Notes under the pieces: generated by a model
What the model was told of the DNA's origin: nothing
Database searches by the model: none
Seen by the model: only the letters and a program-made list of their open reading frames with translations
Source: Rhizophagus irregularis
Lineage: Eukaryota; Glomeromycota; Glomeromycetes; Glomerales; Glomeraceae
Length of the DNA stretch: 64,000 bases
Assembly: GCF_026210795.1 (NCBI RefSeq)
Contig: NC_089430.1
Location: forward strand, 3,844,001 to 3,908,000
Direction: 5' to 3'
Part shown: in pieces, positions 19,856-35,511 of the stretch
How positions within the stretch are numbered: the stretch's first letter is position 1
Layout: every line of letters begins with the position of its first letter
Position numbers and translations under genes: made by a program

Positions 19856-20494
19856 TTATTCCCTCAATGTGATAGCAGAATTGATAGCAGAACAAGCAGC
19901 ATCAAAAAATTTTTCTACTAATCCCTCCGGATCTGGAGTGCTCATGATATCAAACACTGGAAATTCTCCAATTATGCTTTGGAACACTTTGATCATCGTA
20001 TCTGTATATTCTGTAATCTTGCCGAAAAAATAATGAATTTCTGCCGATCGCATTTCCCTCAATACTTGTTCTTCAGTAAGGCCATATGGGTCGCCGTCCG
20101 GATAGTCATCTTCTGGATTATCGAATTGATGGCCATGTGGTGGATAGTCACCGATGTGTAAAAGGACGCGGGTAGTATTTCGCCAGGTCATTTTGGTTAC
20201 GGCTGCGTTAAGTCCGCCCAGAACATCTTCCGGTCCATCTCCACCACCACCTGTAGCTGGAACATTCGATAGATAATTTTTGAATTCTTCGCAAGAATAA
20301 GTGAAATCAAAAACCTGTAAGCGGATAGGGTTATCACAGTGATCACGGTAACCACAGAAACCGACCCGAATTTTAATTGCTGGTTCCAATTTTGCCATGT
20401 ATTCTACTACTTTTTCGATAGCATCTTTGGCACCTTCAATGTATTCCCCCATAGAACCAGTACAGTCCATAACGAAGCAAAGGTCAACTTCCAT
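19856..20494 (-). CDS. vWA-domain protein, cassette copy 1
   Basis: An intronless 212-residue protein that is almost entirely a von Willebrand factor A domain. The metal-ion-dependent adhesion site is DCTGSMG near residues 10-16 (DxTxS). Other conserved stretches are VGFCGYRDHCD, GGDGPEDVLGGLNAAV, RVLLHIGDYPPHG and YFFGKITEY. The overall pattern resembles the vWA domain of fungal and Dictyostelium vWA/alpha-kinase proteins, but no kinase domain is attached. There is no signal peptide or membrane segment, so it is probably cytosolic. It is divergent from a decayed coiled-coil gene at 21205-22095. This copy differs most from the others (for example an extra Gly in the GGGGD loop) but is fully open. 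Its partner and function are unknown; such domains usually bind proteins through a divalent metal. Confidence 0.85.
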   Translation of the reverse strand: MEVDLCFVMDCTGSMGEYIEGAKDAIEKVVEYMAKLEPAIKIRVGFCGYRDHCDNPIRLQVFDFTYSCEEFKNYLSNVPATGGGGDGPEDVLGGLNAAVTKMTWRNTTRVLLHIGDYPPHGHQFDNPEDDYPDGDPYGLTEEQVLREMRSAEIHYFFGKITEYTDTMIKVFQSIIGEFPVFDIMSTPDPEGLVEKFFDAACSAINSAITLRE

Positions 20495-21204
20495 TTGGAG
20501 TTTAATGTTTATTTGATTTTTTTTCGAGTTTTGGACCTATTAAACACTGTTAAACAACATGACAATAAATGAAAACTTTTAATTAACGAATTTCAGTAAA
20601 ATAATAACAGACAATTAAAATAGCACTTACAAACCTAAAGAAATATTTCTTTCTTGAAAAATTACAAAGGATAAAAATAATATGAATGAAAAGTATGCCT
20701 TTATAAACACATACTTTTAGTACAAGCTTTCATTTGATAGAAGGACAAAATTGGATAACAGATTAAGGCTATCACTCAAAGAGAAATAAGAGAATAAAAT
20801 GAAGAATAAAAGAAAGTATTTTTAGAATAGTTTTCTTGTAAAACCTGTAATTCAAAATCATTTTTCATACTGTTTGATTTTATGCCAATTGCAAAATCTC
20901 TTTAAATGACAAAAAGTCTCAGAAAAAAAATAATAATAAATAATATAAATAAATAAAATAAAAACTTAAAATAAAACAAGTTGTGTTGACTAATTAAACA
21001 GGTGAAAATATCAATTATCACAAAAAATAGAGTATAATGCGTTCATTGTACGATGATTTTTTATGTTATCATTGTATTATTGTCATATACTTTTTTAGTT
21101 TAATATTATAATGATATTTTTGACGAAAAAAAGAAAAGGAAAGTAGTTATTCTACGACATATTATGATATTTTAAGTAATTCCGTGGAATCATTGTTTTA
21201 TATA
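20495..21204. other. Divergent promoter region, copy 1
   Basis: This separates vWA copy 1 from its decayed divergent partner and is related to the matching intervals of copies 2 to 4. Shared blocks include AATAATAACAGACAATTAAAA near 20600, the TATA-like box at 20700-20707, and AAAATCTCTTTAAATGAC near 20890. Confidence 0.65.
20700..20707 (-). promoter_or_regulatory. Conserved TATAAA box upstream of vWA copy 1
   Basis: TTTATAAA sits about 206 bases upstream of the ATG. The same box in the same context (AGTA-C-TTTATAAA-ACAC) lies 208-218 bases upstream of copies 2 and 3. Conservation in otherwise diverged flanks supports a core promoter role, by inference. Confidence 0.45.
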
Positions 21205-22095
21205 TTCGATCTTTTTTATATTCGGATAATACATTAAAAATAAACGTCAATCGATGAATTTCACATTGACCAAGAAAAGATTAGATCCGAATGAATTGAA
21301 TAGATAGATATCGATATAAGAATTAAATAATCAATTTACAAAACTTGAAAGTGAATGTTACAAAACCACTAGAAAAAAAAAATAAATATAACACGAGAAA
21401 CAATTGAAAAAACTGAAGTCAAAGAAGAATTTCAACAAGAATGAATTTAGACAAGTACACGAAAATTTGAGAATATTAACATTATAATGATTAGGCAAGA
21501 AGAGAAATGGTTTATGTAAATTAGTAGCTAAAAATATCAAACTTAAAGAAGAAGCATCGGTTTATCGATGTTGGAATACTATGTAACTCGAAATCTACTA
21601 ATATGGATCTTAACACTAAAAGAAGTGCTTTATTAAATCCATTTTACATCGTAGAGCATTGGATTTAGTACGTAAGCTCTCTCATGGATCGGCTGAAATC
21701 CAAGGTAAATCTTTATATTTGAATCGGAACAAGATGAAATTATATATGTATCGATAATAAAAATGCGTTAATTGTGGGCTTAACAATATAATTGATAATG
21801 AAATATTTGTATGACATAATTTTACAAATTAATATCGTAAAGTTAATGTTGGTTTCGCGTAAATGTTCAAGACCAGAATTAAGTGAATTCATTGATGAGT
21901 GATGGTTAATCCAAATACTGTATGATGAAAGGATGATAAAATCGAAATATTACGCGTAGATATATGCTACTTTCTTCTAGTTGGACAAACTTGAAATCTT
22001 CAGACATAAATTAGAATAAATACACTTGCAAAAGTATTTCCGCTAAATATCAGAGAAATATCAGCGGTCTGAATGAAACCAACGAAGAAAAAAGC
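21205..22095 (+). pseudogene. Decayed coiled-coil gene, cassette copy 1
   Basis: A relic of the gene intact at 28335-29999. Recognisable blocks in order: AGAAAAGATTAGATCCGAAT near 21277 (intact GAATTAGATTTCAATGATCC), AAGAGAAATGGTTTA near 21500, TATGTAACTC plus TAATATGGATCTTAACA near 21580-21615, TTGGATTTAGTACGTAAG near 21660, TTGGTTTCGCGTAAATGTTC near 21850, ATTACGCGTAGATATATGCT near 21950 and CACTTGCAAAAGTATTTCCG near 22023. The order is the same as in the intact gene, but there are many stops, deletions and frameshifts and the coiled-coil half is shortened. Clearly non-coding now. Confidence 0.8.
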
Positions 22096-22451
22096 GATCG
22101 AATAATATTATTACACAGAAATGATAATAGTTTTAAGAAAATAATTATATGTACAGTACATATACATATCAAATTTAATATATAAAAGAATGATATATGA
22201 AGGCTAACATTATTATTACTACAAATCTTTAGCATCTACTTCGAAAGAAATTATTTGCCACGTGCTGATTTAAAGTAGCGTACTTCAATTGCGGTAGATT
22301 TTTAAAAAATCTAAAGAATTAGAAGGTTTTCAAGTTCAAAGTTTTTTAACTTAGAAACTTTATTTATTTCGTGTAAAAATAATTTAAAATATAAACTTTA
22401 AAGCTTTCAATTTGATAATTTGATTAATTTAAGCTATTAATAATAAAAAAA

Positions 22452-23090
22452 TTATTCCCCCCTCAATGTGATAGCAGTATTGATAGCTGAACAAGCAGCA
22501 TCAAAAAATTTTTCTACTAATCCCTCTGGGTCTGGAGTGCTCTCGAAGTCAAACACCGGATACTCTCCAATTATGCTTTGGAACACTCTGGTCATCGTTT
22601 CAGTATATTCCGTGATCTTTCCAAAAAAGTAATAAATGCCTGCTGACCGCATTTCTCTCAGTACTTGTTCTGCTGTTAGACCATTTGGGTCGCCATCTGG
22701 ATAAGTATCACTCAAATCAGTGAAACGACGACCATGTGGTGGACAGTCAGCGATATGTAAAAGGACGCGGGTGGGATTTCGCCAGGCCATACTGGTTACG
22801 GCTGCTTTAAGTCCGCCCAGAACATCTTCCGGAGCATCTCCACCACCCAAAGCTGAAACATTCGATACATTATTTTTGAACTCATTGCAAGAAGTAGTGA
22901 ACTCAATAATCTGTAGACGGTTAGAGCCATCACAGTGGTCACGGTAGCCACAGAAACCGACCCGAACTACAATTGCTGGTTTCATATTTGCCATGTAATC
23001 TACTATCTTTTTAATAGAACTCTTGGCACCTTCAATGTGACTCCCCATAGAACTGGTACAGTCCATAACGAAGCAAAGATCAACTTCCAT
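22452..23090 (-). CDS. vWA-domain protein, cassette copy 2
   Basis: Intact single-exon paralogue of the protein at 19856, also 212 residues. The metal site reads DCTSSMG (Ser in place of the Gly seen in copies 1 and 3, as in copy 4). GFCGYRDHCDGSNRLQI, GGGDAPEDVLGGLKAAV and RVLLHIADCPPHGRRF are kept. The start lies 2,596 bases from the start of copy 1, so the cassette repeat period is about 2.6 kb. The neighbouring divergent partner (23700-24056) is decayed and truncated. Function unknown. Confidence 0.85.
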   Translation of the reverse strand: MEVDLCFVMDCTSSMGSHIEGAKSSIKKIVDYMANMKPAIVVRVGFCGYRDHCDGSNRLQIIEFTTSCNEFKNNVSNVSALGGGDAPEDVLGGLKAAVTSMAWRNPTRVLLHIADCPPHGRRFTDLSDTYPDGDPNGLTAEQVLREMRSAGIYYFFGKITEYTETMTRVFQSIIGEYPVFDFESTPDPEGLVEKFFDAACSAINTAITLRGE

Positions 23091-23699
23091 TTGTGTTTGA
23101 TGTCTATTTAATTTTTCTTCGAGTTATGTTTTTCGACTATTAAACAAATATATTCAAATAAAATTATAATAAATGTGTAAGTCACTAAAACTTTTTAACT
23201 AATAAAATAATAACAGACAATTAAAAATAACAGATAAAAATTGCACACCTAAAAAAAATATTTCTTCTTGAAAAATAGAGAATAATAATATGAAAGGGAA
23301 GTACGTCTTTATAAAAACACGTAATGTTTTTTTTGTGCAACACATCCATTCGTGTACTTTTTTAAAATTTTCATTATGATTTTGATAGATTGACAAATTT
23401 GGATAAGATTACTCTCAAAGAGGAATGTAAAATGGTAAAAGTATCATAGATAATGAGATAAGCTTTAAAAATAAATCTGTAACCCAAAATCATTTTTCAT
23501 ATTGTTTATGGTTTATGACAAATATTGTATTTGCAAAATCTCTTTGAATGACAAAAAAGTTCTTAACATAAAACCTGTTATTTTTGACCTGTTAATCAAG
23601 TGATACTAAAATCATCACATTATTTCATAATTCTCTGTGAAAAATTATGATATATATTCTAAGTAGATTCCGCGGAATAATGTTTTTATATGTGTTTGA
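23091..23699. other. Divergent promoter region, copy 2
   Basis: Homologous to 20495-21204. It shares AATAATAACAGACAATTAAAA near 23210, the TATA box at 23308, and AAAATCTCTTTGAATGAC near 23536. No gene. Confidence 0.65.
23308..23315 (-). promoter_or_regulatory. Conserved TATAAA box upstream of vWA copy 2
   Basis: TTTATAAA about 218 bases upstream of the ATG, flanked by GTACGTC and AACACGTAATG. It corresponds to the boxes at 20700 and 25889. Confidence 0.45.
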
Positions 23700-24056
23700 T
23701 CTTTTTTTTTCTGGACAGTACCTTAGAAAAACAAACTTGAACTACAAAATAACAAGTTGAAGAATGAAGATAATGAAATCGACGAATTTCACATTAAGAA
23801 AAGAATTAGATTCAAATATCCGAATGGTCTGAATAATAATAGATGTCCGCATTGATAGAAGAATTAAAGCAATTGTAAAATATATCAATCTACAAAGCTT
23901 GAAAATGAATGTCACAAGGGTAACGGGAATTTCAAAATTCATTAGTAATCCCATTAAGAAAGAATGAATAAAACTAACGCAAAAATTTTATGTACATTAA
24001 CACTATAACAATTAGATGAGAAGGAAATGGTTTAAATGAAAACATCAAACTTAAAG
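23700..24056 (+). pseudogene. Decayed, 3'-truncated coiled-coil gene, copy 2
   Basis: Matches the 5' part of the intact gene: AAACAAACTTGAAC and AACAAGTTGAAGAATGA near 23730-23770, GAAATCGACGAATTTC near 23774 and AAAAGAATTAGATTCAAAT near 23800. It then jumps to AGATGAGAAGGAAATGGTTTA near 24015 and ends at ACATCAAACTTAAAGA (about 24056), where unrelated sequence begins. The last three-fifths of the gene are missing. Confidence 0.75.
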
Positions 24057-24720
24057 ATCCTTGTCGGACCTTTTCCCGAATGCCATTTTTCATTTTCCGA
24101 AGTCAATTTACTGGATCATTCTCCAAAACCCCAATACTACTAATACTACTCTCCAATTTCTGATCCCAATTTTCTAATTTCCAAATATCCAGTATATACT
24201 CTTTTTTATGTATTATTATTTATTATATATATTTTTATATTTATTTAAAACTTTTCAGTTGTTAATAATGTTATTTATTTTAAATTTCTGTAATCAAATA
24301 ATCTTTTGACAATAAACCATTTTTATGCCAGGCCAAAATGGAAAGGGTTAATAAGAAACCTAAAATCATGGGAAAATAATTTTTTTTTTTGGTCATTGTG
24401 ATTTATTAAATATAAATAAAATCATTCATTAATAAATCCAGTAAATGTCCATTCGGGAATAAATTTGCAATAATAAATTATCTTTGTATTAATATCTGAG
24501 TTATGTTCACGCTACATAGAATTTTATTATTTATCACACTCTTAAAATTATAAATCGTTATTTATTTGAAAAAAAAAAAATAGATGCAAATCGGGATATT
24601 AGTATTATGGAAGTTTCAGAAAAGATTCAATTTCCATAATAAGCAATCGGAAATTGGAAAATTAACTTCAGGAAATGGTATATTCAGGAAATGGCTCGGA
24701 AATCGTACTGTAACCATGCT
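24057..24720. other. Unrelated insert with weak terminal inverted similarity
   Basis: This stretch replaces the 3' end of the copy-2 coiled-coil pseudogene. Its left part (CCCGAATGCCATTTTTCATT, TCCGAAGTCAATTT) is loosely mirrored by its right part (AAATTGGAAAATTAACTTCAG, AAATGGTATATTCAGG). This suggests an old inverted-repeat element, but the ends and any target duplication are not clear. No open frame. Confidence 0.35.
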
Positions 24721-25042
24721 AATTCTATTATACATAGAGTAAGACTTTAGATTTAAATATTGTAAAATGCAATATTCGAATATACGATAAAAATTATTGA
24801 TATTCTTTTTTCATTGTTTAAACGATTATTGTCAGTATTTATTTCCAGCAGTAAACTTATAGGATATTCAAATCTACTTATTTTAAAGGTTTAAGTTCGA
24901 AATTTGATTTTTGTAATTAGTTCAGAATCCTTATTTAGAATAAGAATTGTGATGAAATAAATTATATAAAAACACTAAATAATTATTATACGGTATTTAG
25001 CATTAATTTGCAATTTAAGTTGCTATTGGTAAAACAAAAAAA
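24721..25042. other. 3' flank of vWA copy 3
   Basis: AT-rich, no gene. The last about 50 bases (TTGCTATTGGTAAAACAAAAA) match the flanks of vWA copies 1 and 4 and belong to the duplicated unit. Confidence 0.55.
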
Positions 25043-25681
25043 TTATTCCCCCCTCAATGTGATAGCAGTATTGATAGCTGAACAAGCAGCATCAAAAAAT
25101 TTCTCTACTAATCCCTCTGGGTTTGGAGAGATCTTGAGATCAAACACCGGATACTCTCCAATTATGCTTTGGAACACTCTGGTCATCGTTTCGGTATGTT
25201 CCGTGATTTTCCCGAAAAAGTAGTAAATACCTGCTGATTGCATTTCCCTTAACACTTGTTCTGCAGTAAGACCATTTGGGTCGCCGTTCGGATAATCGTC
25301 ATCCGTATTATTGAACCGACGGCCATGTGGTGGATAGTCACCGATGTGTAAAAGGACGCGGGTGGGATTTCGCCAGGTCATACTGGTTACGGCTGCGTTA
25401 AGTCCACCTAGGACATCTTCCGGAGAATCTCCACCACCTGAAGCCGAAACACCCGATAAGCGATTTTTGAACTCATCGCAAGAATAAGTGAAGTCAAAAA
25501 TTTGTAAGCGATTAGAGCCATCACAGTGGTCACGGTAACCACAGAAACCGACCCGAATCTTAATTGCTGGTTCCATATTTTCCATGTATTCTACCACCTT
25601 TTTGATAGAATTCTTGGCACCTTCAATGTGGCCCCCCATAGAACCGGTGCAGTCCATAACAAAGCAAAGATCAACTTCCAT
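25043..25681 (-). CDS. vWA-domain protein, cassette copy 3
   Basis: Intact single-exon paralogue of 212 residues. Metal site DCTGSMGG near residue 10; VGFCGYRDHCDGSNRLQIF, SASGGGDSPEDVLGGL, RVLLHIGDYPPHGRRF and YYFFGKITEHTETM are conserved. It ends in TLRGE like copy 2. The start is 2,591 bases from that of copy 2. Divergent from a decayed coiled-coil copy at 26165-26860. Function unknown. Confidence 0.85.
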   Translation of the reverse strand: MEVDLCFVMDCTGSMGGHIEGAKNSIKKVVEYMENMEPAIKIRVGFCGYRDHCDGSNRLQIFDFTYSCDEFKNRLSGVSASGGGDSPEDVLGGLNAAVTSMTWRNPTRVLLHIGDYPPHGRRFNNTDDDYPNGDPNGLTAEQVLREMQSAGIYYFFGKITEHTETMTRVFQSIIGEYPVFDLKISPNPEGLVEKFFDAACSAINTAITLRGE

Positions 25682-26164
25682 TTGGCGTATTTAATTTTCT
25701 TCAAGATATAAGTTTTTGGCCTATTAAACAATTATAGTCAAATAACATGTATAACCGTCAATAAGTATGTAAGTTATTAAAACTTTTAACTAACGAATTT
25801 CAACAAAATAATAACAGACAATTAAAATAGCAATCAAACCCTTAAGAAATTTTTATTCTTGAAAACTATAATGAATGAAAAGTACGGCTTTATAAACACG
25901 CACGTAATGATTTTTTGTGTAACACGCATTTTGTGTACCTTTTTTTATGCTTTGATAGATTGACAAAATTGGATAAGGCTATACTCAAAGAGGAATATAA
26001 AATGGGGAAAGTCTTATTGATATAATGAGATAGGCTTTGAAAACATTAATTTCACACGGTATATGATTTATGACACATATCATATATCATATCAATATCT
26101 GAATCAATCAAACCTGTTATTTGATGTTGAGTAATTAAATATTTTTAGTATCGATATATATTTT
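25682..26164. other. Divergent promoter region, copy 3
   Basis: Shares AATAATAACAGACAATTAAAA near 25810 and the TATA box at 25889 with copies 1 and 2. Shorter than the other intervals. No gene. Confidence 0.6.
25889..25896 (-). promoter_or_regulatory. Conserved TATAAA box upstream of vWA copy 3
   Basis: TTTATAAA about 208 bases upstream of the ATG, in the context AAAGTACGGC and CACGCACGTAATG. It corresponds to the boxes at 20700 and 23308. Confidence 0.45.
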
Positions 26165-26860
26165 TTTTTTTTTCGGATAATTCCTTAGAAAAAAAAACTT
26201 GAACTTAATCAACGAATTTTTCATCAATAAACTAAATCCGAATAATTAAAAAGATGTCTGGATTTATAGAAGAAATAAATTATATCGATCTATACAACTT
26301 GAAGTGGATTTTCATAGGGAAAGGGAAAAGTAATCAAATTTCATTAATATTATTAAATAAAATACGAGAAATAGTTGGAAAAAGAAAAGCGAGAATTCGA
26401 AATTTATCAATGAAATTTTGATCATTTAAAGGATCGTAATAATTTGGAACAATTTGGAACAATAACTGAGAGATCAAAAAGAGATTTCGGCAAAAATTTA
26501 AATAATTGAAGTACAAGAAACATATTAGAAGAATATTATATTAGATTAGATACAGTATAATTTACGTAGGTTAAAAGGCGAAAATGTCAAACTTAAGAGT
26601 CATCAAATATCAATAAGCATTTTACGATGGTGGGCCAAAACAAGAATTTAAAAACAAAAAATGATGAATCAATATCGCAAAATAAAATTATTTCGTTAAA
26701 TGTTCAAGAGAGAGTATTTTTTGAAAGTATTATAATTACTCTACAGGACGATAAATTACGTGTATATACTGTATGTGCTACTTCTAATTAGACGAATTTG
26801 AATTTTTCAGTATATACACTTGCAAAGTAATGTATTTCTGCGAAATATCAGCAGTTCAAA
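26165..26860 (+). pseudogene. Decayed coiled-coil gene, cassette copy 3
   Basis: Recognisable relics of the intact gene at 28335: AAAAAAACTTGAACTTAATC near 26192, TGGAAAAAGAAAAGCGAGAA near 26378, GTCAAACTTAAGAGTCATC near 26586, TTTCGTTAAATGTTCAAGAG near 26691, GACGATAAATTACGTGTATA near 26747, and TACACTTGCAAAGTAATGT followed by CGAAATATCAGC near 26816-26850. All reading frames are closed by stops. Confidence 0.75.
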
Positions 26861-27121
26861 TGAAGTCAACTGTAAGTCTTTTAAGCCCTAGAAATATTAT
26901 TAACACAGAATTATTATTTGATATTCTATAATTCACTGTTTAGATCAAAATTTCAAAATCTAAGCTTAGGTTCATATTTTATAACTTTTGATTTTGATAA
27001 TTAGCTTAATTTATAAAATTCAGGACTGGAATCTTATTAAATAAATTTACGTATAATAAAAACATCAAATAATAGAATATAGCAATTTAGACTGCTATTT
27101 GTAGAACAAAAACATTATTTC
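26861..27121. other. 3' flank between decayed copy 3 and vWA copy 4
   Basis: AT-rich. It resembles the interval at 22095-22451, with AAGTCAACTGTAAG near 26870 as a relic of the coiled-coil 3' end. No gene. Confidence 0.5.
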
Positions 27122-27763
27122 TCAATGTGATTCTCTTAATGTGATAGCAGTATTGATAGCTGAACAAGCAGCATCAAAAAATTTTTCTACTAATCCCTCT
27201 GGGTCTGGAGTGCCCTTGATATCAAATACCGGATACTCTCCAACTATGCTTTGGAATTCTTCGGTCATCGTTTCAGTATATTCCGTGATTTTCCCGAAAA
27301 AGTAGTAAATGCCTGCTGATCGCATTTCTCTTAGTACTTGTTCAGCAGTTAGACCATTTGGGTCTCCATCTGGATAATCGTCTAGCAAACCAGTGAAACG
27401 ACGGCCATGTGGCGGACAGTCACAGATGTGTAAAAGGACGCGGGTAGGATTTCGCCATGTTATACTGTTTACAGCTGCGTTAAGACCGCCTAGGACATCT
27501 TCCGGAGCATCTCCACCACCTGTAGCTGAAATACCCGATAGATAATCTTTAAAATCATCGCAAGAATTGGTGAAATCAAAAATTTGTAGGCGGTTAGGAC
27601 CATCACAGTGGTCACGGTAGCCACAGAAACCGACCCGAACTATAACCGTTGGTTTCATATTTGCCATGTATTCTACCACCCTTTCGATAGCATTCTTGGC
27701 ACCTTTAATGTGGCCCCCCATAGAACTGGTACAGTCCATAACGAAGCAAAGGTCAATTTCCAT
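27122..27763 (-). CDS. vWA-domain protein, cassette copy 4
   Basis: Intact paralogue of 213 residues and the only copy whose divergent partner is also intact (28335-29999). The metal site is DCTSSMGG near residue 10. VGFCGYRDHCDGPNRLQIF, SATGGGDAPEDVLGGLNAAV, RVLLHICDCPPHGRRF and YFFGKITEYTETM are kept. The C-terminus reads TLRESH because the stop is displaced by a duplicated TCTCAATGTGA/TCTTAATGTGA next to the 3' end. The TATA box seen in copies 1-3 is not evident at the matching place. Function unknown; presumed soluble, metal-dependent protein binder. Confidence 0.85.
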   Translation of the reverse strand: MEIDLCFVMDCTSSMGGHIKGAKNAIERVVEYMANMKPTVIVRVGFCGYRDHCDGPNRLQIFDFTNSCDDFKDYLSGISATGGGDAPEDVLGGLNAAVNSITWRNPTRVLLHICDCPPHGRRFTGLLDDYPDGDPNGLTAEQVLREMRSAGIYYFFGKITEYTETMTEEFQSIVGEYPVFDIKGTPDPEGLVEKFFDAACSAINTAITLRESH

Positions 27764-28334
27764 TTGGCGTTTGATGTCTATTTAGTTATTTTAAGTTTTT
27801 TGCCTGTTAAATAATTTCAATCAAATAACATGAGAATATATAAAGTCATTAAACTTTACAAACGAAACTGAGTGAAATAATAATTAAAACGATAATAAAA
27901 ACCCAAAGTAAAATATTTCTTCTTGTAAAGCGCACAAAATAATATTTGGTAATAACGTAGCCAAGATAAGTTTTTTATGTGGCTTGTATCAAAGAGTTTA
28001 TTCTATATGCAAAGGTTTTTTTTAGTACACAACACGTACTTTTCGATGATCAAACTAGATAAGGCCATACTTAAAGTGGAATAAAATGGGAGTAAAAGTA
28101 TTTTTGGATATAATGAGATAGTTTCGTAAATATAACGTATAAACCTGATTACTTAAGAATCATTCACACGATATATGATTTATGACATAAATATCTCTGA
28201 ATGGAACAAACCAAGTTATTATTTGATTTTATAAGTGATAAAAGTGATAAATTATTAATTATCACATAATTTCATATATAAGTAACAAATTTAACAACTT
28301 TTTTTTTTAAAAAAGGAAAAATTACGACGTAAAA
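27764..28334. promoter_or_regulatory. Divergent promoter between vWA copy 4 and the coiled-coil gene
   Basis: The 571 bases between the two start codons must drive both genes. It keeps some blocks of the other copies (TCTCTGAATGGAAC near 28192) but TTTATAAA is replaced by TTTTTTATGTGG near 27970. The coiled-coil start is preceded by a T9/A6 tract. No other feature. Confidence 0.5.
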
Positions 28335-29999
28335 ATGAATACTCTATATCGTATTTATAATTTTGTAGGAAACAAACTTCAAAATAATCAAGTTGAAAAT
28401 GATGAAATCAACGATTTTTCTCCTCAGACAAAAAAAGAATTAGATTTCAATGATCCGGATCATTATAATAATGGTACCCAAATAAAAAATAATGAAGAGA
28501 ATGCATTGCTAGAAGAATTAAATGAAATGAAAGAAAGTTATAAAGAATTAGAACAATCACTAATAAAAATTTCTCAAAAGTCTAAGAAATTGGAAAAAGA
28601 AAAGCGAGAAATCGAATCAAAATTAAAAACTTCAAATGATAAAGTTCAAAAGCTTCAAGGTGATTTATCGCAGGAAAAAAAGAATTCTCAAAAGTTTAAA
28701 CAATTGGAAAAAGAAAAGCGAAAACTTGAAGATGACATGTTGCAGGAAAGAAAAAAAAATAATTTTATAATTGAAAAAAATCAGAAAGAAAAACAAGAAC
28801 TCGACTCTAAATTAAAAATTTTAAAAGAAAATTATCAACGAGATATAAATCAATTAAATGGTCGTTATAATGAGTTAGAATTAACAAAAAAAAATATGGA
28901 AAGAGATATGGAAAATAATATCAAAAATTTAGAACAGCAATTAAGAGAACAGAGAATAAAATTTCAGCAAGAATTTAAACAAGCACTTGAAAAATATAAG
29001 AAGAATATTAACAATATAAGACAAAGGTTAGATGAGAAGGGAAATGGTTTACGCGATCTAGAAGACGAAAATTCCAGACTTAAAGAAGAGGCATCTAAAT
29101 ATCAATCAGCACTTGGTGTTGCAACAAATACTCGTCTTGGCGATGGTGATCAAAATCATTCAATTAAATTAAAAAATGATATCTTAAAATTACAGAACAC
29201 ATTGGATAATTATGTAACTCATTTGAAACCTAATATGGATCTTAACATTAAAGAAATACAAAAGCTTGCGCAAGAATATGGTTGCTTAAATGAAATTACT
29301 GCGGAAAATCCAAATAAGATTTTTGTTAAAGCTATTTTGCAACGTAAAGTATTAGATTATGTACGTGGTTTTTCTCATGAATTGCATAATTTGATTGAAT
29401 CCCAAAAAATCACAAGGGGACCCCTTACACTTGAATCAGATATCGTATCAAAAGCAAGTGAATTATTAAAATTAATCAATTTTTTCTCAGTAACTCGTGC
29501 CGGAACTGATGAGGTTACTGATGCATCAATGATTAAAATACGTCAACAAGTTTATGGAATTCTTGGTAATCGTGGATTTAACAATATAATTGATGATGAT
29601 GGAAATATGCGGATGCATGATTTTATAGCTCTCGTTAGCAACGAACTCAATAAAATGATGAATCATTATCGTAAAATCAATGATCCTAATAGAAAAGAAC
29701 AAGTTGATTCAATGGCACCAAAACTTGTTCAAGATATTTATAAATTATTTTGGTTTCGCATAAATGTTCAAGAACCAAAAACAGAATGTGAACTTTTTGA
29801 AAATAACATGATTAATCCAAATTTGATGAAAGGATCATGGAATGAAGATGAAATCGATAAATTACGCGTAGATATATGTTACTTTCCTCTCGTTGGAAGA
29901 AATTTGAATTCTTCAGATGCAAAAATATTTACACTTGCAAAAGTATTTCCGCGATATATTAGCGATTCAAATGAACCCAACGAAGAAAAAGACGAATAA
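28335..29999 (+). CDS. Coiled-coil protein, intact partner of vWA cassette
   Basis: A single open frame of 554 residues with no assigned function. Residues about 50-265 are an almost continuous coiled coil (EKEKREIESKLK, QLEKEKRKLEDDM, EQQLREQRIKFQQEF). Residues about 275-545 form a conserved globular region with LKNDILKLQNTLDNYVTHLK, KAILQRKVLDYVRGF, a helical run ending RQQVYGILGNRGF, LFWFRINVQEP and ICYFPLVGRNL. I believe this region recurs in many Rhizophagus proteins, from memory and without a search. No signal or membrane segment. Divergent from vWA copy 4, convergent with the Hsp70-like gene at 30449. Three decayed copies of this gene sit beside the other vWA genes, so the pair was duplicated together. 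A scaffold or oligomerising role is inferred only from the coiled coil. Confidence 0.85.
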   Translation: MNTLYRIYNFVGNKLQNNQVENDEINDFSPQTKKELDFNDPDHYNNGTQIKNNEENALLEELNEMKESYKELEQSLIKISQKSKKLEKEKREIESKLKTSNDKVQKLQGDLSQEKKNSQKFKQLEKEKRKLEDDMLQERKKNNFIIEKNQKEKQELDSKLKILKENYQRDINQLNGRYNELELTKKNMERDMENNIKNLEQQLREQRIKFQQEFKQALEKYKKNINNIRQRLDEKGNGLRDLEDENSRLKEEASKYQSALGVATNTRLGDGDQNHSIKLKNDILKLQNTLDNYVTHLKPNMDLNIKEIQKLAQEYGCLNEITAENPNKIFVKAILQRKVLDYVRGFSHELHNLIESQKITRGPLTLESDIVSKASELLKLINFFSVTRAGTDEVTDASMIKIRQQVYGILGNRGFNNIIDDDGNMRMHDFIALVSNELNKMMNHYRKINDPNRKEQVDSMAPKLVQDIYKLFWFRINVQEPKTECELFENNMINPNLMKGSWNEDEIDKLRVDICYFPLVGRNLNSSDAKIFTLAKVFPRYISDSNEPNEEKDE

Positions 30000-30448
30000 T
30001 TTATTACATATAGATGATAATAATTTTACACAATTATATTTTTTTTTATTTTTCTTACATTGTATTATATATATATATAATATATATTATATATATCACA
30101 TCAAATAAAATTTACTATTTAACTTCAAATAATGTTTATCAAATTTAATTGTCAATCCTAAGAACGATACCGACAATTGTTATAATAAATAAAAATCGGA
30201 TGGAATTTAGCAATTGGTAATAACGAATATGTAAAGCAGTTCAGATAATATCTTTATTTAATAAGATAAAAAAAAGAGTTTTTACATTGCACATCGTCAT
30301 ATTTCACCTTATTTCACATTTTTTACATGATTTGTAAAGAAACCAATTGATATGTTGTAAAAATTACGTCATATATGCAAAAAATTTTAACGATAGTTAT
30401 TAGCAAACAAAATGAAAAAAATATTTAGACGGCGGAAAATAATAATGA
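30000..30448. other. Convergent 3' intergenic region
   Basis: AT-rich 3' flanks of the coiled-coil gene and the minus-strand Hsp70-like gene, with TATATA microsatellites at 30066-30096. No gene. Confidence 0.6.
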
Positions 30449-32625
30449 TCAATCTTCTATGTCTGTTTCAAAAGAAGTATGGTAATTTTGACCATTTAAA
30501 TCATTACTTGCCCTCGCCGTAATTTCCATTTTACCAAATGCTAATTTAAAAGTAGTGGGTCTATTTATTCCGAGATGTTTGTCTGGCCAATCGATTTTAA
30601 GTCTCCCAAGTAATTTCATTCTGGGATCACCAAGATTAGCTTCGTGTTCGTATTTGTCTATGAAGTAAATTTCAAATACTCCCTGTTTTTGAAAAGGAAA
30701 AGAAGGTCTTACATTTGCGGTAAATTCTTCGTTAATGTTAGCCATGGTTCCTTTATTTGCCATAGCATGAAAACGAAAAGTAGAATCTTCAGGGTTTAAA
30801 ACTTTGATCCCATAAGTATGTCTTAGTACACGTGAATCTATGACAAACATTAGACCATCCATTTCATCATCATCCATGTCATTAACAGAATTGGCAAAAC
30901 TAGCACCATAGATTGCTGCGCCGCGAGAAACAGCCGCGACCGGATTTATAGGAACAGAAATATTAATACCGCGGTGATATTCGTGATCTGAAAATTCGTC
31001 TCTAATTCTCTTTTGTAAATATTCTGATTGACTGAACCCTCCGACTAATAACATCGCAGAACATTTAGAACCTTTCTCCTTACAATTTTCAAGTTGAACA
31101 CGAATCATTCGTAAAATTCTTTCAACGACTGGATCAAACATTGATTTGATCGTCTCATAATCAAGTTTAATTAACCATTCAGCCTCTTCCATTCTTTTTC
31201 TCACTTCGTCGCTTACGTACTGTGATATAACAGGTGATACTTCATTGAGATCCATTTCATAGCTAAAGTTTAAATCTTCCCCCGTAAATTCAAATTTAAC
31301 ATTTTGGCAAAAATTTTGGACCATATACTGCATTTGTCCATAATAATTTTCCTTCAATAAATCCATGGGATGATTATCGAGTATTGTCCTTAAGTGATCA
31401 AGGAATGCACCATCAATAAAAGAACTTCCGCAATAATCACCCGCTCTTTCTGTAATTTCTCCCAATTGATTTTCATTCAATAATTTTCGTGTCGTCAAAT
31501 CTACTGTACCACCACCACAATCGACGATCATAAAAATCGCTGTTTACAAAACAGAATTCTAGTTAACTTAAATGATGTGTATGAAGTATTCATAATAATA
31601 CATACTTCCACTAGTAGCCAAATCATGTTCTTTAAGAACATTATCCTTGCAATAAATTGCTGCAGCTTCAGCTATTGGAAAGGAAAGATTTTATTAATGA
31701 TTTTATTCAAAAAAAGAGAAAATTCGTTTGTAACTTACGTTCCGTAGTAAATTCTAATTTTTTAGAATCTAAATCGTCAATTAATCCAGCATCTAATGCA
31801 CACTTTCTCATTGTCGCTTTTTCTTTTTGTGTATATTCAGCAGGAACAGTAAGGACTAGCAGCACATTTTCCATAAAATCGATTTCCCACCTAGCTTCAT
31901 CACTAACATCCTTTATAGTATCCTTTATATGCTATTTATAAAATAATGAATACAATAAAGATATTTTTTAATAAAAAAATATATAAAATTAAATGTTATT
32001 AATCTTACACTTACTTTACCGATTTCTCGAAGATAATCAGTAATTGCTACTTTATAATTTATAGTAAGTTTATATTTTTCTTTAAGCTCATCGCTTAAAT
32101 TACCTAAATGTAATTTAAACAACTCTAACACTTTTTCTCGTTTATTCACAGCAACCCTTCGATCCGGGGGTTTAGACAGTGCGGATTGCCCCCACGATTC
32201 GACATTTCTTAAACTATCATCATATCTTAATACTGTATTGGTTTTATAGCTCTTTTAACAAACAAAAAAAAATAAATAATAATCTTTTTTCGTGATTCTC
32301 GTTAATTTAAGAAGAAATATATTATTTACGATATTATCGCCAGCGTTAGGCCAAGTTACGTTTGTTGTATACATTATATCTTCAGTGGCTTCGCGATGAC
32401 AATAAGTATATCCCTATTGAAAAGGTTCAATGTCATTTAAAAGGTTAATTTTCAAAAAAAATGAATCATATCAATTAAAAAATCTACAAATTACCGAATA
32501 AGTGGTTCCAAAATCTTCAGAGAAACGTTGAATTCAAAAATCTTCATTAATTAAACTAGCTAATAAACGAATGCAATTTTAATGTTTATCGTACCTAAAC
32601 CAACTATGACACGAATATCCGGCAT
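30449..32625 (-). CDS. Hsp70 family protein, HSPA12-like (minus-strand member)
   Basis: An actin-like ATPase of the divergent Hsp70 branch that includes HSPA12A/B. Seven exons: 32595-32625, 32495-32514, 32330-32413, 32015-32251, 31739-31931, 31606-31671 and 30449-31539. They total 1722 bases, 573 residues, with consistent phases and GT-AG borders. Motifs: DFGTTYS (phosphate 1, spanning the first introns), TEPEAAA, IVDCGGGTVDLTT near 216 (phosphate 2) and LLVGGFSQSEYLQ near 378 (adenosine site). The C-terminal part lacks a canonical substrate-binding domain and EEVD tail, as expected of the branch. Probably cytosolic; substrate unknown. Head-to-head with the paralogue at 33218, 592 bases away. 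The third and fourth introns here are absent from the paralogue. Confidence 0.88.
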
Positions 32626-33217: not shown

Positions 33218-35511
33218 ATGTCTTCAAGCGACGACATTCGCGTTGTGGTGGGTGTTGGTAAGTTTTAAGTCGACGTATTTTATTAATTAATACAAAATGT
33301 GCCAGATTCTCACATTTTTTTCGCTTTACCTATTATATTACAGACTTTGGAACTACATATTCCGTAAGAATATTTTTATTTAGCGTAAACGAATCAAATT
33401 TTGAGAATTAGTATTTTAATAAGCTGATTAATTATTCCTTAAAAAAAACGAAAGGGATTTGCATATGCTCATAAATCCAATCCTAATGATGTTCAAGTAT
33501 ACGATTTTTGGAAAGGTCTCCATGGAGGATGGTTTAAAACACCAACAGTCATAAATTATGATGACTCCTGTGCAAATGTAATGTCGTGGGGATTATCGGC
33601 ACTAGCAACAAAGCCAAGAGGAAGGTCTTTACGACCCTCTTCAAAACCGATTGAATTGTTTAAGTTACATCTATTAAAAAGGGGAACTACGTCTTTACCA
33701 GACGCATTAAATTATAAAGATGTTATTAAAGATTATTTGAAAGAATTAGGTAATTATATTAGAAGAAGGGTAAAAAGTCATTGGCACAGTTTAGATTTTG
33801 ATAGTCAAGTTATAATTGTAATTACGGTAACAAAAGCTTTTCGATTTTTTTTTAAAAAATTAAAAATTTAAGTAATAGAAAATTTATCAATTTATGTAAT
33901 TCGTTACTTATTTTTCTAGGTTCCCGCAGAATTCGACGATAATGCGATTGAAACAATGAGTGAATGTGCGATTGGCGCAAATTTGGTCAAAGAGGAAAAT
34001 ATTGAAAGAAATTTAAAATTTACAACAGAACGTAAGTAACCAATGAATAAATCTGCTTTTAATTCTAGTCAGAATTAATTATCATAAATTCAAATTTTTC
34101 GATTATAAATATTTGATTATTCAAGGTTCTTACATATTACTTAATTTATAGCTGAAGCTGCAGCGATTAATTCTATAAGTTCACTAAGGAATGAATATCT
34201 TTTGAAATCGGGAGGTTAGTATGACTTTTCTATTGCAGTTCACGTGAGAAAATTTTTTAAATCTTTTTTTCTGTATAAATAGATTTATTTATGGTGGTTG
34301 ATTGTGGTGGTGGCACAGTGGATCTAACAACGCGAGAATTATTAGACGAAGATAAATTAAGTGAAATAACTGTGCGTGCAGGCGATAACTGTGGTTCATG
34401 TTATGTGGACCAGGCATTTATTGAGTTTCTTGATAGTAAAATAGGAAGTTCCACTATTGATATTTTAAAAGAGAATCATTATGTTAATCTACAATATATC
34501 GTTCAAGACTTTTGTACAACCACTAAAATTTTTTTTACGGGACGAGAGGATGATTTTCTGGCTTATTACTTAAATTTAGATGAATATGAGCCAATTAAAA
34601 AATGTATTACTGGAGAAGAAAAAGAGAAGTTAGAAGCTGATGAATGGTTGATCGAAGCTAAATTTGATGATGTTAAAGAAATGTTCGATCCTGTTATAGA
34701 AAGAATTTTTACATTAATAAGAGGACAATTGGAGCAACTAAAACGGCTTAAAAAGGACATTTCTTTAATGTTATTGGTGGGTGGATTTAGTGAATCTGAA
34801 TATTTACAAGATAGAATTAGGGGAGAATTTTCTTCAGAGGTGCCGAATATTTCTGTGCCTAAGAATCCTGTTACATCTGTTATGAAAGGAGGTAGGTAAA
34901 AAAAGATCCTTTTACGAATCTCTTTAAAATAATATTAACCTTTCTTAAAAAATAAATCTGCAAGCTGTGAAATTTGGTCTTTCAGAAGAAGTTGTAGAGA
35001 GTCGTGTATTGAATTGGACTTATGGTATCAAAATCATTCTATATTTTTGAATTAATTTGTTTAAAAGAAAATATCTTAACTGTGTCCTTCTTTTAAAGGT
35101 ACTTGCGTAGTAAGAAAATGGCTTCCAACCGATCCATTGTCATATAAACTTCCAAATGGGTATGTAAAAGTTTTTGAAAAATTTGGTGAGGAAGGTTATG
35201 GAGCACCAATCAAATTAAACAGTAAAGTTATCAAAGATTTTAAATCATTTTCATTAACTCAGCGAAAAATAAATATTGATATGTATGTAACAAAATCTTT
35301 GGATGCGAAATATATTGGAGATCCTGAGATAAAATTACTTCGAAAATTTCAATTAGAATTGCCAGAATTAGATAGTTATGAAGATATTGAAGATATTACT
35401 ATTTCATTTATTTTAAAATTTGGGAGGGTGGGAATGTCTGCTATTGCTGAAAATAAGAATACTGGTCATGAGTGTAAAGTTACTTTTAAATATGACTTTG
35501 ATTTAGTTTAA
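33218..35511 (+). CDS. Hsp70 family protein, HSPA12-like (plus-strand member)
   Basis: Paralogue of the gene at 30449-32625, transcribed away from it. Eight exons: 33218-33257, 33344-33363, 33455-33826, 33920-34031, 34152-34214, 34283-34891, 34965-35024 and 35099-35511. They sum to 1689 bases, 562 residues. The 20-base second exon encodes the core of DFGTTYS and has the same size and phase in both genes. Motifs: DFGTTYSGFAYAH near 14, TEPEAAA, VVDCGGGTVDLTT near 208 and LLVGGFSESEYLQ near 365. Two introns near the end (after the adenosine motif) and one inside ITVPAEF are absent from the paralogue. The last third is strongly diverged from it (FEKFGEEGYGAP and a long acidic tail), so substrate choice may differ. 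No stop or frameshift seen. Confidence 0.88.

Follow-up and report, generated by a model that had tools for sequence, protein, structure and literature searches.

A kinase-less VwkA-type vWA gene, probably amplified in tandem, in Rhizophagus irregularis

Layout of the locus

The window, a stretch of 64,000 nucleotides (C2:3844001-3908000) from the low-GC Rhizophagus irregularis genome (146,748,485 bases in 32 contigs), contains four minus-strand genes for small von Willebrand A (vWA) proteins, which alternate with four plus-strand coiled-coil (CC) genes or their relics (Table 1). One CC gene is intact and three are relics. This alternation was part of the original prediction, as was a repeat period of 2.1-2.6 kb, and both were borne out, the vWA repeats being spaced 2599, 2591 and 2082 bp apart. 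The neighbourhood is a fast-duplicating one.

Table 1. Features of the window, numbered from its first base
Feature	Position	Strand	Evidence
vWA copy 1, 212 aa, kinase-less VwkA-type	19856..20494	-	ORF; Pfam VWA_4, E 1.9e-10
CC relic copy 1	21428..22135	+	blastn pieces 71-78% to 28960-30028; tblastn 21902-22042, E 8e-7
vWA copy 2, 212 aa	22452..23090	-	ORF; VWA_4, E 2.1e-13
CC relic copy 2, faint	23740..24057	+	blastn 23740-23825 to 28375-28460 of intact gene
vWA copy 3, 212 aa	25043..25681	-	ORF; VWA_4, E 5.7e-12
CC relic copy 3, short pieces	26298..26870	+	blastn to 28590-29981 of intact gene and to L028
vWA copy 4, 213 aa	27122..27763	-	ORF; VWA_4, E 2.7e-12
Gap between divergent starts, 571 bp	27764..28334		partly alignable to L028 (blastn)
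Intact CC gene, 554 aa	28335..29999	+	ORF; relatives in genome
Hsp70-like frame, tail-to-tail with CC gene	30449..31531	-	PF00012, E 8.7e-6
Second Hsp70-like gene	34279-34896	+	PF00012, 17.1 bits, below cut-off of 20.6

A fifth small vWA gene (C2:2796305) lies 1.07 Mb from the window and is likewise head-to-head with an intact CC gene, at the locus designated L028. Because parts of the intergenic DNA of the copy 4 pair (27864-27944, 28047-28099 and 28141-28323) align by blastn with that at L028, we regard the L028 pair as a duplicate of the window's. The predicted divergent layout and co-duplication are supported, as shown also by this one further intact head-to-head pair. A protein kinase frame (PF07714, E 3.5e-32; L028:6498-7295) also sits beside the fifth small vWA gene.

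The small vWA proteins and their kinase-bearing relatives

All four vWA proteins of the window match VWA_4 above its curated cut-off, at E values (1.9e-10 to 2.1e-13) far beyond chance. Genome-wide, 25 vWA matches were found, comprising the five small intact genes, 18 loci with a kinase downstream and two relics (C2:4214745 and C2:1988112). The downstream kinase was detected at 18 of 18 kinase-type loci by tblastn with the kinase part of one of them, L009, against 10-kb stretches; 16 of these loci consist of one open frame of 532-669 aa and two are interrupted. Five of the 18 were taken into a Pfam scan. The three intact genes among them all matched PF02816 (Alpha_kinase, E 1.6e-40 to 1e-45); for the two interrupted loci the vWA-bearing frame alone was scanned, which ends before the kinase and in which VWA_4 fell below the cut-off. 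The copy 4 protein is 52-59% identical to the vWA parts of the 18 kinase-type loci. The L009 kinase part found no tblastn match in the window or at L028, and PF02816, with 22 matches across the genome (some of them pieces or relics), had none on C2.

Five of the VwkA-type kinase genes (L031, L032 and L036-L038) lie within about 43 kb of one another at C23:1.586-1.630 Mb, a cluster that also holds a decayed alpha-kinase (C23:1597950). In the C12 kinase L009 (L009:1087-3093), a KDGGEV-type short tandem repeat is inserted inside the alpha-kinase match.

A maximum-likelihood tree of 23 vWA sequences, built without an outgroup, places the five small proteins on one side of a branch with support of 100/100, and the same five together with three C12 kinases on one side of another (100/99). 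No relatives of the vWA alignment were found in the prokaryote genomes or viral contigs searched. Since groups on both sides of the small vWAs carry a kinase, its loss is the more economical interpretation, and we infer that this probably took place in the small-vWA lineage.

The original prediction held that little beyond a DxTxS metal site is retained in the vWA proteins. This proved wrong, as 51 positions are invariant across the 23 sequences. D10, D85, E88 and D115 are among the invariant residues, and T12, S14 and P87 are nearly so. We take the loops that carry them (D10/T12/S14, D85-x-P87-E88 and D115) to be a MIDAS; by analogy with the fold family, these residues would coordinate a metal ion that in turn contacts an acidic ligand. 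The loops presumably resemble those of integrin beta vWA domains. A profile of the 23 sequences gives a weak match (best E 1.3e-3) to the vWA domains of integrin beta, although the window protein differs in being a single small domain. An AlphaFold model of the vWA protein, from an input alignment of four sequences, had a mean pLDDT of 38.5, too low for the model to be of use.

The five small proteins share 73-83% pairwise identity. They start at a methionine just before the domain, nearly invariant in the 23 sequences, and stop near the domain's end. All small copies are under purifying selection: each of the 10 pairwise comparisons gives a dN/dS in the range 0.25-0.44, with a Fisher p no higher than 1.5e-4. 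Copies 1-3, whose CC neighbours are dead, give 0.25, 0.28 and 0.40 among themselves, pairwise values being averages over the history of the genes which carry no date for the loss of the partner.

Comparable systems have been described outside this fungus. VwkA of Dictyostelium is an alpha-kinase with a vWA domain, for which two Neurospora proteins are given as orthologues (PMC1420674); it is reported to act on myosin II and to be located at contractile vacuoles (PMC4083560). The window's vWA is of the type that precedes an alpha-kinase, a grouping made by shared domain order and not by VwkA sequence, but the window proteins stop at the vWA domain, and no kinase domain was found in the window. 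The original prediction knew of no described system with the architecture seen here. Its vWA half, being that of a VwkA-type alpha-kinase, makes the architecture less unheard-of, although the kinase-less amplified form does differ from VwkA. Our literature queries found no paper on an alpha-kinase in Rhizophagus irregularis; "von Willebrand" with the species name returned only what is, by its title, a Cryptosporidium study, and "alpha kinase" was absent from the top-listed papers when combined with mycorrhizal terms.

The coiled-coil family and its Hsp70-like neighbours

The 554-aa CC protein comprises a coiled coil (residues 1 to about 254, by eye) and a conserved C-terminal domain (about 255-554). 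Its 73 matches in the genome merge into 66 genes. The closest, at C2:2790153, is 79% identical over 452 aa, as compared with 61% over 519 aa for the L028 copy (80% and 67%, respectively, in a second comparison). The whole protein had no Pfam match above curated cut-off, and its C-terminal domain nothing above cut-off in Pfam or NCBIfam; no relatives were found among the viral contigs searched. A sequence search of the PDB gave ten weak matches, among which a designed chain resembling a coiled coil ranked first (E 0.0088), and AlphaFold with single-sequence input gave a poor model of the C-terminal domain, with a pLDDT of 45.9.

Among the three relics, copy 1 is the best preserved and the only one detected at the protein level (tblastn). 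It comprises five blastn pieces, the best in the C-terminal part, the last of which overruns the intact gene's stop by about 30 bases. Copy 2 has one piece that aligns with the intact gene, its others aligning with copy 1 or other relics and with the L028 copy. The longest stop-to-stop plus-strand frame across the three relics is 64 aa, among frames of at least 40 aa.

The Hsp70-like frame next to the intact CC gene scores 24.7 bits against PF00012 (cut-off 20.6), and exon-like frames extend the gene to about 32254 by eye. The second Hsp70-like gene shares 51% identity with this one across 205 aa, its frames running from 33262 to 35508, again by eye. We assume that the proteins are HSPA12-like. 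The first frame has 128 matches in the genome, 112 after merging; this list and that of the CC genes are lower bounds, the Hsp70-like pieces at a further CC locus, L047, being absent, for example. An Hsp70-like match lies within 5 kb of 43 of the 66 CC genes. When each CC gene is taken with its nearest match, the two are arranged tail-to-tail in 10 of 10 cases at up to 1 kb, in 15 of 18 at up to 1.5 kb and in 21 of 43 at up to 5 kb. The Hsp70-like gene is thus the commoner neighbour of the CC family, often tail-to-tail, as in the window. Expansion of the Hsp70 family in Glomeromycotina has been reported (PMC8778642), with which the 112 merged matches found here, among them those beside CC genes, can be compared; the available part of that text mentions no CC partner or layout. 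Among the titles listed for our HSPA12 and Hsp70 queries, none concerned clusters of CC and Hsp70-like genes.

C18 carries 50 of the 66 CC genes, and in its region from 0.15 to 1.66 Mb a large cluster intermixes 49 merged CC matches with 75 Hsp70-like ones, close neighbours frequently lying tail-to-tail. We compared the arrangement on C18 with 1000 circular shifts and with 1000 local jitters with random strand. Tail-to-tail counts at 500 bp, 1, 1.5 and 3 kb (7, 9, 13 and 16) were reached in 3, 0, 0 and 0 shifts and in 79, 38, 2 and 0 jitters, the 13 within 1.5 kb comparing with a mean of 2.6 in circular shifts. With orientation ignored, the counts of close neighbours (7, 9, 16 and 30) were reached in 437, 445, 91 and 2 shifts; for jitters the figures are 997, 1000, 987 and 328, inflated by the overlap of gene models that jittering allows. 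Orientation therefore stands out on C18, and nearness within 1.5 kb is not unusual. The cluster is unlikely to be the endogenous viral region of PMC10640383, which is placed on chromosome 8 of strain 4401; the absence of "hsp70" and "coiled" from the available text of that paper also counts against the identification.

Evaluation of alternative explanations

The original prediction saw in the vWA and CC proteins a functional pair, and such a two-protein unit, with a sensor and a scaffold expressed from a shared divergent promoter, deserves consideration. It is consistent with the two pairs found intact and head-to-head, those of window copy 4 and of L028, and with constraint on both proteins, the CC gene giving dN/dS of 0.53 in the coiled coil and 0.47 in the C-terminal domain. 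At L047 (C2:1.984-1.988 Mb), moreover, a broken, partly inverted vWA, of the small type by eye, is separated by 3.2 kb from an intact CC gene with 31% identity to that of the window across 426 aa. (A frame with a PARP catalytic domain, PF00644, E 1.4e-7, occurs near this broken vWA at C2:1.99 Mb; L047:6352-6957.) The two intact pairs, however, are duplicates of each other and hence not independent, and the two genes are not both intact wherever they occur together, since in the window three of the four CC genes have decayed beside vWA copies that stay open and constrained. A count of neighbours in this genome also goes against the prediction. Head-to-head pairing recurs intact only once, as the L028 duplicate; at a distance limit of 10 kb, not one of the 18 kinase-type vWAs has a listed CC neighbour (15 sit on contigs that carry no listed CC gene) and 60 of the 66 listed CC genes lack a vWA match; and the sole vWA match on C18 is of the kinase type, 46 kb from the nearest CC gene. 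No vWA was found that belongs to C2:2790153, the CC copy closest to the window's; one reaches a vWA gene, the fifth copy, only after 4.8 kb and past another CC gene. As no vWA was found between the C2:2790153 and L028 CC genes at E 1e-4, a level at which a fainter relic could escape, vWA and CC genes have not simply travelled together. What stands of the predicted pair is its divergent layout, co-duplication, protein-level constraint and the L028 copy; its co-dependence does not. An obligate vWA/CC pair is not supported, and we consider a functional two-protein unit improbable.

Alternatively, the CC family may work with Hsp70-like proteins, the vWA genes being passengers in a copied neighbourhood. 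The frequency of Hsp70-like neighbours within 5 kb, their mostly tail-to-tail placement when close, the C18 excess within 1.5 kb, which no shift equalled, and the same layout in the window are in its favour. Against it, nearness within 1.5 kb was nothing exceptional by comparison with shifts or jitters, jittering also reached the tail-to-tail counts at 500 bp and 1 kb, and both families form tandem arrays in which duplication may carry orientation along. Of the 16 CC genes off C18, moreover, six have an Hsp70-like neighbour at up to 5 kb, in two cases tail-to-tail, and at L047 the Hsp70-like pieces are in tandem with the CC gene. We judge this reading unlikely. A third possibility, that the vWA array is a remnant of duplication which no longer serves a function, is in keeping with the decay of the CC partners and of two other vWA loci. 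Yet all five small frames remain open at dS 0.30-0.50, with a one-codon gap as their only internal indel, and dN/dS is well under 1 in every pair, leaving this explanation, too, with little probability. The most far-reaching proposal would be a Glomeromycotina module for diversified recognition or signalling, in which many neighbouring pairs of an Hsp70-like ATPase and a CC protein, whose C-terminal domain is undescribed, are joined on one chromosome by free vWAs split from VwkA-type kinases; we regard it as a very long shot.

Origin and significance

The best overall explanation, to which we assign a probability of roughly 0.7, is that the locus holds amplified stand-alone regulatory vWA domains, perhaps competing with kinases. 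In anatomy and origin, it is very probably a local tandem amplification of a kinase-less VwkA-type vWA gene. The ancestor would have been a VwkA-type kinase, with a vWA and an alpha-kinase domain, whose N-terminal extension and kinase were lost to leave a single-domain gene. This gene would have come to lie head-to-head with one member of the large CC family, and the vWA/CC block would then have been copied, three of the four CC copies subsequently decaying and all vWA copies being retained under selection. The locus looks like a modest lineage-specific variation on a known kinase type, and not like a new two-gene system.

Copies of a free binding domain that are kept under selection would most simply act on the kinases' own ligand. 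Judging from conserved residues, the free vWA domains might thus be metal-dependent (MIDAS-type) binders of the ligand of the kinases' vWA, competing with or regulating the kinases, or serving as adaptors, a tentative proposal whose chances we put clearly short of even.

The large CC family, with its unnamed conserved domain and recurrent Hsp70-like neighbour, may be the more interesting object. The vWA genes nonetheless offer a clear case in which the regulatory domain of a kinase is free, amplified and under selection in a genome with 18 kinase-bearing loci. Should they share a ligand with the kinases, the free domains would be natural regulators of a little-studied class of kinases.
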